Below, piece by piece: positions 22,066 through 25,701 of a DNA stretch of 64,000 nucleotides. The stretch is taken from assembly GCA_032622095.1 (NCBI GenBank), contig CP136061.1, positions 1,612,001 to 1,676,000 of the forward strand, in the 5' to 3' direction. The position numbers were made by a program, and so were the translations under genes. The DNA is from Siphonodentalium dalli (lineage: Eukaryota; Mollusca; Scaphopoda; Gadilida; Siphonodentaliidae). Below the pieces are notes generated by a model. That model saw only the letters and a list, made by a program, of their open reading frames with translations. It had not been told where the DNA came from and did not search any database. The stretch's first letter is position 1. The number at the start of each line of letters is the position of its first letter.

Positions 22066-24127
22066 GTTGTCGTCAACATGTTCGCTGTGTGTAAATATAG
22101 TTCGGTGCTCCCCCCAATGGATGCGGTGAGGAAACTCTCGGATAGAACTGTGCTCTGATTTATCAATAGCATATAGTCAAGAGGGTGGTAGAAAAATGGT
22201 CCAGATATTTAGGCGCTGGTGGGATGGTCAACATCAGCTCAAACATCGTTTTTTTCTGCAAGCTGAATTATTTTCCCCTCATGCCTATTTTATTTTTTTA
22301 AAATTATCATAAATTTTGACCCAGAAATGGCAATAAGCATTGTATACTGAAGTATATACTACATATAATGCCACATACCAACATAGTGTTTTGTATAGGA
22401 GTGAGGTATCACTTCGGAACCCACACCTAACCCCTCTGCTGGATGCAGATAATTCACCACTGTACAAATTGTGACCCGAACAAACATTGTCACTACCTGC
22501 TGCGTATCATAAAAAAAATATATATATATAAAACTAGGTACATCATATTCACATCGTGCTAATCGAAATTAAAACTGGAAACTGACATATGAATAACATA
22601 CTCATGTATTCAATTCAATCAACTTGTATGATGTTCTATACCGCACTTCATTTATGATGTTCCGCACCATGCAGAGAAGGAAGTCACACAAGGGTACTCA
22701 AGTTCACATCAAAGGTTCACGTCCATGTGTAAATGTATATTAGCCAAGAGTTAAATTTCATTCTATTGTACTCAAAGTATGTCTTTTGTGTGACCTGACT
22801 ACATGTGCTACATAGGCACAATAAAGAGGCACATCGACCTCCAGATGGGAAAGCACACACGTGTGCCACACATAATACATTCTGATCATATTTCTACGGA
22901 TGTTTAGGGTTAACATAGGATCGTTACAATATTATCTGATGACTCTTAAAAGGGCCATAATTGCATAATTTGTAGCGATATATGTATATTCGATAAGATG
23001 ATTCGGTTTTATTGTTGCGTAACGGTCTACTCGAGTGGGAACGAGTCATAAAGTCTGTAAAATAAACATGATGTTAACAAATCGTTGATACGCCGTAGCA
23101 TGTCGTCCTGCGTGTGTGGTCTATATACAAACCCCAAGCATGTTAATACTAAACGAATATCCGTTATCTGCATGCATACGAACGACATCGCTCGCGTGCG
23201 TGTGATCGAGACATCGCGTTATCATTCATTCACCTTTTTGAGATCGCAGATCTGAATTCTGAGATGGATGTTCAATTAATTTCAATTGAAATACATTCAT
23301 AATAGATATGTACACAATATTTAGAATATGTTATGGATTCATATTTCAGATGACATTCGCAGTCCAATTGATCAGTCTCAGATACACATAAAAACACCCG
23401 AAAACGCATCAAAACTCCTTAAGTGATATGCATATTTACTGCACAGATGCTCGGCGTTTCGTAACATCTTCATCTGTGGCGTTAACATCTTTCTGGGCCG
23501 ACAGTGGTCCATCCATATCGCGCGTATATTGAGAACGACACTAAGTTTTAAAATACTGTTCAACCCTATGCTTCATTGACAGATTCAACTATATACCGGC
23601 ATTTGTGTTGGCAGCGTGGACGTCCAGGAACTATACTAGTGGGTGGTTGTTCTCGAAAATTTGAGTGAGAAAAAGTAAAAACACTATTGAAAAAATTCGC
23701 CAAAAAATATTAAATGGTTGATCTGGGAAAACTGATTGACATCGCGTGGATAAATACTCCTGCTTCATGTGGACATACACATGCGTTGTTCGTTGTCTGT
23801 TTTACGATGAGAAACAAACATATCCCCATATCATATACGTGAAAATGACTTTCACATATTCTCGGTTTTGGCGATACCCTCGGTTTTGGCGATACCACGT
23901 ACACGGGGGTGTTGATGATTTGGTAAGAGAATTGAGGACATTAAGAACATTTTAAAATGTGCAACGACTGTGACCTCAGTACATTTCTGGAGTTTCAATG
24001 TTTATAAATGTAGGTTCGCAGTCAGGACCAGTAAGAAAAGTAAGGTGTGACTTTAAGGTATCGAACAAGTTGATAAACACATAAAACATAAACAATATGC
24101 ATTTAAAAATAAAAAACACTTCGCTGT
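22066..24127. other. No supported gene; small duplications
   Basis: A 19-bp direct duplication, CTCGGTTTTGGCGATACC, sits at about 23861-23897. Short ORFs only. No element ends recognised. Confidence 0.4.
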
Positions 24128-24577
24128 TATGGCAAGCCAAACCGCTATTTAATATTAATTTTACTTAAGTAAAATTAAATGACTCTTTATTTTACTTAAG
24201 TGAAATAAAATCATATTTTATTTTACTTAAGTAAAATAACGGTCATTTTTGATTTCACTTAAGTAAAAACAATTTTACTTAAGTAAAGATATCAATCTTT
24301 TAACTTAAGTACAATTCTTTTTTACTTAAGTAAAATAAAAACGGGCGTAATATAATGGTCATTTTATTTCACTTAGTAAAATTAGTGTGCTTTTTAATTT
24401 TACTTAAGTAAAATAAAACCATGTAGATGGCGCTTTATTTCACTTAAGTAAAATAAAATGACACTTTATTTCACTAAAGTCATATAAAATGTCATTTTAT
24501 TTCACTTAAGTGAAATAAAGTGCCATTTTATTTTACTTAAGTAAAATTAATATTAAATAGCGGTTTGGCTTGCCATA
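24128..24577. mobile_element. 450-bp inverted-repeat element packed with CTTAAG palindromes
   Basis: Perfect 48-bp terminal inverted repeats (24128-24175 and 24530-24577) start TATGGCAAGCCAAACCGCTA and run into ATTTTACTTAAGTAAAAT. The element is flanked by a 6-bp direct repeat CGCTGT (24122-24127, 24578-24583), a likely target duplication. Inside, the 18-bp palindrome ATTTTACTTAAGTAAAAT occurs about 13 times, sometimes with G or C replacing A or T (TTTCACTTAAGTGAAA), separated by 10-25 bp. It encodes nothing. It is a miniature transposon whose superfamily I cannot name; 6-bp duplications are uncommon. Confidence 0.85.
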
Positions 24578-25701
24578 CGCTGTGTTTCTCAAGCTGTATA
24601 ACAAAGCATCGCACAGTATCATTAACGGAAACATATGTGATTCATTGTAAGGTTATGTTATCGAGTAGATATTTGTCACAAATCTTGGAAAAAAGGAGTG
24701 GAAACATATTTTGAAAACAAAATGGGGGTGGTGGGTGCCAAGATAGGTCAAACTGAAAAAATAGCATATGTGTTGGGAACTTTTTTCCACCACCCCCTGT
24801 ATATATAGTCTGTGTTTCCACATAAAAATACAACACACCCCTTCCCTATAAATTCTCTTAGATAAAATTGCCATCGGCACAACAGTTTGATGTACTTCAT
24901 TTTGTTATTCTTGATTGAACATACTTTTTTTTCATTTTTGTGCATAAAACGTTACCCCAAATGTTAATCTTTCAGACTTTAAGAAAATCCAGGAGCTTTT
25001 GAAAACAGTATACACTAAAACGTTTGCCCATTGTAACCTATTGATGTAGCTCAAGCACACTGCAGCTACAATCATGGCCGATCGTTGATTACCGAGTGTC
25101 AGCACCAATCTCCTTGTAATATCCTACAGAGACACAATAGACAACACGACAATAGACACAACAACAACAGACGATGTCAGCATTTATCTAGATCAATTTT
25201 AAGTGTAAACACATATGGAATGCAAATATTCCTTTCTCCAAACACACACGGTTGTCATGGACCATTGGCATTGTGTGACACTTGACGTGGGATCAATATA
25301 TCATGGTTAATGGACGAGCTACTCGAGATTATGAATTTAAATGGTCGAGCCCAAATTCCAATCGCGAGTCCATTAACCGACTTAAAAAACTGTTTTATAA
25401 TATACAAGGATAATTTACCTTTACAAATGGAAAATTCTGATAAATCCTGATGAATCAAGATAAATATGCTTTATGTATAAAATTAGACCTTGGCTGACAA
25501 CAAAGCCACGCCCCTTGCCCGGTTCTTGTTATTGGAGGTTGCATGAACTTTGCCAACACAATTATTGTAGGCATATATAGCGGTGCACGTCTGTTTGAAA
25601 CCAAACTTCGATGTACGCAAACATAATAAAATATTTATATTGCGCTGTGCATAGGGTAGTATATTTAATAAATAGAGCATGGCTATGGTGGCTTGGAGTT
25701 C
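24578..25701. other. No supported gene
   Basis: Short overlapping minus ORFs at 24642-24945 and AT-rich sequence. CAACACGACAATAGACACAA-type low complexity occurs at about 25130-25170. Confidence 0.4.

Follow-up and report, generated by a model that had tools for sequence, protein, structure and literature searches.

What kind of element consists of little but palindromes, and what might those palindromes be for? The question is raised by positions 24128-24577 of a 64,000-nucleotide stretch of the Siphonodentalium dalli genome (contig CP136061.1, positions 1,612,001 to 1,676,000), all of which is called the window below. A sequence-only reading of the window had described a miniature transposable element that has a 48-bp perfect terminal repeat, lies in a 6-bp duplication and is made of about 13 CTTAAG-centred palindromes, and each of these points was confirmed. 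The element is exactly 450 bp long, runs from TATGG to CCATA between two copies of CGCTGT, and holds 13 CTTAAG-centred units at up to four mismatches to TTTYACTTAAGTRAAA, nine of them mismatch-free (Table 1). This copy has no coding capacity.

Table 1. Parts of the 450-bp element and its flanking duplication (positions in the window)
Feature	Positions	Strand	Basis
Target site duplication, left copy, CGCTGT	24122..24127	.	sequence
Left terminal inverted repeat, 48 bp, perfect; starts TATGG, contains palindrome 1	24128..24175	+	
Palindrome 1, TTTTACTTAAGTAAAA	24159..24174	.	
Palindrome 2, one-sided change (T..G)	24190..24205	.	
Palindrome 3	24221..24236	.	
Palindrome 4, one-sided change (C..A)	24253..24268	.	
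Palindrome 5, 1 mismatch	24273..24288	.	
Palindrome 6, 2 mismatches	24299..24314	.	
Palindrome 7	24320..24335	.	
Approximate junction of left and right arrays; ~650-bp core of longer copies absent	24336..24366	.	inferred from palindrome spacing
Palindrome 8, decayed: 4 mismatches ungapped, interpretable as a 1-bp deletion in CTTAAG	24367..24382	.	
Palindrome 9	24398..24413	.	
Palindrome 10, one-sided change (C..A)	24438..24453	.	
Palindrome 11, decayed, 3 mismatches	24469..24484	.	
Palindrome 12, TTTCACTTAAGTGAAA, two-sided change	24500..24515	.	
Right terminal inverted repeat, 48 bp; finishes CCATA, contains palindrome 13	24530..24577	-	
Palindrome 13	24531..24546	.	
Target site duplication, right copy, CGCTGT	24578..24583	.	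sequence

ACTTAAGT occurs 11 times inside the element and nowhere in the remaining window, and 2000 dinucleotide shuffles contain it 0.04 times on average and at most twice. When the window was cut into 157 overlapping 1.2-kb tiles, only two, both overlapping the element, held at least five copies of one 10-bp palindrome. The same measure applied to the first 1.2 kb of 83 other loci picked out 18, of which 17 belong to the window family; the remaining one (L054) is an unrelated tandem repeat, whose GCGCATGCGC motif belongs to a ~120-bp tandem unit and was rejected as an example of the palindrome-array architecture. The element also folds far below its shuffles (z of -25.5 as RNA and -23.4 as DNA), which mostly restates its palindromes. 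Outside the element, an 18-bp unit, CTCGGTTTTGGCGATACC, occurs twice without mismatch at 23861-23896 of the window.

The element belongs to a large family whose ends read TATGGCAAGCC. Allowing up to three mismatches, the first 23 end bases match 605 times (301 + 304) in the 2.2-Gb genome, as against five matches (1 + 4) for the reversed control pattern; at least 340 distinct exact ends of the family were enumerated, those with an A two bases outside being covered only on C1 and C2 up to 118 Mb. Both ends could be paired for 40 members of L001-L080, a set that omits single-ended, duplicate and some other complete copies (e.g. L007:2211-3009). The expectation that other copies would also carry 6-bp duplications largely held: these are exact in 31 of the 40, carry one mismatch in four more, are shifted by one base in one and have two mismatches in another, while two copies have no duplication and one (L062) was mis-paired through nesting. 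Fourteen aligned copies of 1.2-1.5 kb fall into two subfamilies, with identities of 96-99% inside a subfamily and 80-85% from one to the other, and because of the former figure we take the family to have been recently active.

Neighbouring ends among the 340 form 89 pairs with lengths from 149 bp to 45 kb, some of which may be wrong because the list of ends is partial. The window copy falls in a group of 20 at 149-517 bp, and a further 22 measure 1.40-1.52 kb. Copies of 1.2-1.5 kb carry a palindrome array at each end with a unique ~650-bp core between them. Thus the array, which had been presented as a peculiarity of a miniature element, is indeed there, but it also forms both ends of longer copies. 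In the window copy, palindrome spacings run through a left-array series (31, 31, 32, 20, 26, 21) and then a right-array series (40, 31, 31, 31), and therefore this copy looks like an internal-deletion product in which both end arrays were fused and the core was lost. Arrays vary in length and spacing among copies, the spacings in 39 copies being mostly 21, 31-32, 26-27, 36, 40, 48 and 53 bp.

Tandem copies of the family occur at L004:1901-1980, where right and left ends share the bases TA; this junction was read in sequence, and the pair as a whole is flanked by one CAGTGC duplication. Two further TA-sharing pairs, at C2:90925048-90925057 and C3:96544276-96544285, were inferred from overlapping pattern matches. 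Such junctions may reflect a joined-end (circle) intermediate.

Several known groups differ from this family in their duplications or termini. Foldback makes duplications of 9 bp and Galileo and the P superfamily duplications of 7-8 bp, where the window family has 6 bp; the varied 6-bp sequences likewise depart from the TTAA duplication of piggyBac and Kolobok. Polinton / Maverick elements share the 6-bp duplication, but end in AG..CT rather than TATGG..CCATA. CACTA/En-Spm and Ac/Ds resemble the window element in bearing many short motifs beside each end, subterminal arrays that bind transposase, but these motifs are non-palindromic and the duplications measure 3 bp and 8 bp, respectively. Closer parallels are found in the IS3EU families, which, according to the excerpts drawn on here, have TA..TA termini and usually 6-bp duplications (PMC10045372), the fungal families having TAYGG..CCRTA termini and inverted repeats of more than 30 bp (PMC12730594). 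With its CGCTGT duplication, its TATGG..CCATA termini, which fit that consensus, and its 48-bp inverted ends, the window element resembles the IS3EU/GingerRoot kind in all of these respects, and families of similar architecture in this genome adjoin an IS3-like integrase-core gene. It differs in that the window copy codes nothing and in the palindrome arrays within the ends, which in this genome vary by family. We found no description of such arrays in IS3EU-like elements in the open-licence PubMed Central literature, the only literature covered and seen in extract.

Repetitive ends as such have precedents. Foldback and Galileo of Drosophila have long, internally repetitive inverted ends, the first copies found consisted of ends only, and the authors of the Galileo work proposed that tandem repeats in the inverted ends hold secondary transposase-binding sites, a convergent trait (PMC3573991, in the portion consulted). 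The window family shares with Foldback inverted ends composed of repeated sub-units, whereas the Foldback and Galileo units are direct tandem repeats of ~210 bp rather than short perfect palindromes, and Galileo has a P superfamily transposase (PMC3573991, same portion). The claim that the element is unlike standard miniature transposons was thus half right, since Foldback and Galileo also have repetitive inverted ends, and the end motif and duplication of the element fit IS3EU. The window element is best explained as a non-autonomous DNA transposon, of IS3EU/GingerRoot type, that has been reduced to two end arrays, an account that, taken whole and including the docking function discussed below, we consider probable.

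A genome search for full-length relatives encoding a transposase had been proposed, and it yielded longer copies but no transposase in the frames scanned. Frames were listed for the long copies L061-L069, L078, L079 and L080; ten of these, from L061, L063, L064, L065 and L069, were scanned against Pfam, and none gave a transposase match at E of 0.1 or below. The match from L069 was to a retroelement-type endonuclease, and we read the L080 frame as Gypsy-like, the L067 frame as recombinase-like and L061 as a copy of the 1.4-kb type with large inserts. Match lists for PF00665 and NF033516 were set aside as mostly Gypsy-like integrases with long frames, and L081, taken from them, reads as a Gypsy polyprotein. 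PF24764 (rva_4), which we take to be the likely Pfam model for IS3EU-type transposases and to correspond to Repbase IS3EU, has at least 126 matches in the genome, with 150 of 241 candidates scored. Comparison of 112 rva_4 places with the 340 enumerated exact ends, both partial lists, placed no rva_4 gene inside a bracketed window-family copy. Two rva_4 places lie within 30 kb of window-family ends, both outside nearby complete copies and 14-17 kb away, and four end-place pairs fall within that distance where about one is expected by chance. One pair of window-family ends, at C7:72036317-72081552, lies 45.2 kb apart and has no rva_4 match among those listed; it is a candidate that could be the family's own coding element.

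Arrays of other palindromes were found beside rva_4 genes. We sampled nine rva_4 loci (L082, L083 and L086-L092) in stretches of 81 bp to 4.3 kb; they count as nine families judged only from frame length and score. L082 and L083 were fetched to look for ends, and L086-L092 were chosen blind to their sequence as a test for arrays. Four of the nine (L083, L087, L089 and L091) have, upstream of rva_4, an array of a perfect palindrome that differs from locus to locus. L083 has a 346-residue rva_4 frame and 34 units of the CCTGATATATCAGG type, the array starting 93 bp upstream of the likely ATG; L087 has an array of TCGTGGCCACGA with 37 exact 10-bp cores in the part read, which runs off the stretch; L089 has 27 cores of GGCGTTTAAACGCC; and L091 has an array of TCGAGATCTCGA in the 81 bp read. 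In the last three, the nearest array base read lies ~0.4-0.65 kb upstream of the rva_4 match. At the other five loci no array was seen in the 1.2-4.3 kb covered at L082, L086 and L088 or in the 81-bp probes of L090 and L092, and on our reading the L082 and L086 stretches look to be still inside exons.

In L083, L087 and L089 the array comes close to a TAYGG terminus. Counted from that end, the first dyad follows base 47 in each of them, despite unrelated termini and unrelated palindromes; in the window family it follows base 39. Palindromes are spaced by 21-22 bp in L083, L084, L085 and L089 and by 20 and 22 bp, with one of 26, in L087. The L083 protein matches the rva_4 model at E 4e-26 and, weakly, the bacterial IS481 model (E 2.3e-5; 24 bits, cut-off 224) and a transposase helix-turn-helix model (E 0.007, sub-threshold). 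Its AlphaFold model is unreliable (mean pLDDT 42), and no solved structure related to it by sequence was found at E of 1 or below. Just beyond the TATGG end of L087, positions 1-313 of that stretch hold a 73-bp tandem repeat, four units with ACGTATACGT. On C5, related rva_4 matches, mostly in frames of ~200 residues, cluster within 2 Mb (C5:259106040-261142671).

Ends of these families also pair over long distances. Inverted L083-family ends stand ~28 kb apart, and one 28.2-kb pair (C4:26576442-26604659; L083:1-4001, L084:1-931) has TACGG..CCGTA ends, GTTTTA on both sides, end arrays of 34-37 units and the rva_4 transposase near one end. L085 was considered as a miniature copy of this family, but its array of 22 exact cores continues into the inner sequence found in L084; it is thus an end whose array is shorter. 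L089-family ends number 82 + 83 with none for the control, 100 of them listed, and pairs of 39.5 kb (C7:164195858-164235351; L089:1-1201) and 40.9 kb (C8:155464449-155505324) each bracket rva_4 near one end. L087-family ends number 95 + 98, again with none for the control; two rva_4 matches each have such an end 1.3-1.4 kb upstream of them. Of five neighbouring pairs with printed flanks, four have an exact 6-bp duplication and the fifth has one mismatch. The L083- and L089-family pairs link a transposon group that has received little study to elements 28-41 kb long.

Elements of this size invite another use for the arrays. The palindromic repeats of baculovirus hr regions and of Epstein-Barr oriP are models for replication or transcription-enhancer modules, and the arrays might likewise be bound by another element-encoded protein, with the miniature copies as passive carriers. 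The 28-41 kb spanned by the rva_4-bracketing pairs leaves room for other genes, and the L083 array stops close to the likely start of its transposase frame. However, short window-family copies retain their arrays while the remainder is gone, which makes the arrays look necessary in cis for movement, an argument drawn from the window family, in which complete short copies were read. We regard such a module function as unlikely.

We favour instead the explanation that the transposase of each family docks specifically on the arrays of that family, which we judge probable from the sequences compared, the window copy then being an element reduced to such docking sites. It draws on the size of the family, its duplications, end motif and array architecture, on palindromes that vary less than their spacers, and on a like architecture, with unrelated palindromes, that adjoins rva_4 genes elsewhere in the genome. 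Specifically, the transposase would bind each palindrome as a dimer through its helix-turn-helix part, and an array of a dozen or more would concentrate the protein beside the cut site, the first dyad lying 39-47 bp from the end. In coding elements the array upstream of the gene might also serve as an operator for transposase expression, and miniature copies would move by virtue of keeping the end and many docking sites and almost nothing else.

Variation among copies bears on whether the palindromes have a binding role at all. In the 14 aligned copies, palindrome positions except position 5 differ at 1.0% (493 of 49,285) and spacers at 2.3% (1,317 of 56,837), a contrast that may partly reflect misaligned spacers or homogenisation; position 5 itself differs at 3.2%, more than the spacers, and the outer 26 bases at 1.4%. 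For the cores the value is 17%, but it mixes non-homologous cores and is not comparable with the other regions. Across 775 units, bases 1-4 and 7-8 from the centre are ~98% constant and position 5 is mostly T or C, the constancy being inflated by the selection of units for motif likeness.

Paired changes such as TTTCAC..GTGAAA, said to keep the symmetry, are found across copies, but in the window copy only one of the 13 units has this two-sided form and three clean units (24190, 24253 and 24438) carry one-sided changes. In 781 units from the 40 copies, the T/C states of the two positions five bases from the centre are associated. With one vote per context cluster at 75% likeness (88 clusters, 13 with another base excluded), the counts are TT 45, TC 8, CT 10 and CC 12, giving an odds ratio of 6.8 (p 0.001) among clusters that still share ancestry; at 80% and 90% the ratios are 5.2 (p 0.001) and 3.7 (p 0.002). 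The proposed check for compensatory change thus finds the two halves associated, but one-sided clusters (18) outnumber two-sided ones (12).

The palindromes could instead lack a binding role, self-priming or fold-back slippage amplifying any palindrome near a transposon end. Array length and spacing do differ between copies, and the whole element folds on itself. The lower variation of palindrome positions other than position 5 relative to spacers, the association of position-5 changes across the dyad, and the equal distance of the first dyad from the end in three families with unrelated palindromes all argue against this account, and we hold it to be quite improbable.

A host DNA-binding protein might also recognise the palindrome. 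The half-site TTAAGTG/TAAGTA resembles NK-2/NKX3 homeodomain sites, and the dyad TTTnACTTAAGTnAAA is constant over the 775 units, themselves chosen by motif likeness. However, a single host factor would leave unexplained the unrelated palindromes of other families in like position, and we consider this very unlikely. The original suggestion of a transposase or host protein binding array thus survives in its first half: a binding array is the best explanation, and a transposase is favoured over a host protein as the probable ligand because unrelated palindromes occupy a similar place in other families of this genome.

Five different palindromes were seen in the genome. They may belong to a lock-and-key series of transposases, in which large IS3EU-like transposons carry private palindrome arrays in a near-fixed frame and miniature parasites consist of an end and a key, a generalisation over which we are evenly divided. 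If docking is what the palindromes are for, this single genome holds several related transposase families that differ in their recognition palindromes and have near-identical geometry. This would permit a direct test of how eukaryotic IS3-like transposases find their own ends and avoid those of relatives, and of how they are parasitised by miniature copies.

The arrays also receive insertions. An element of 570-630 bp that is specific for TTAA, with AGGGGTACTGTAC ends and Kolobok-like RR..YY termini, is inserted in the arrays of four window-family copies (L065, L061, L068 and L004). Of its nine left ends there, seven directly follow CTTAA, that is, palindrome centres; the palindrome arrays act as landing sites for this element.
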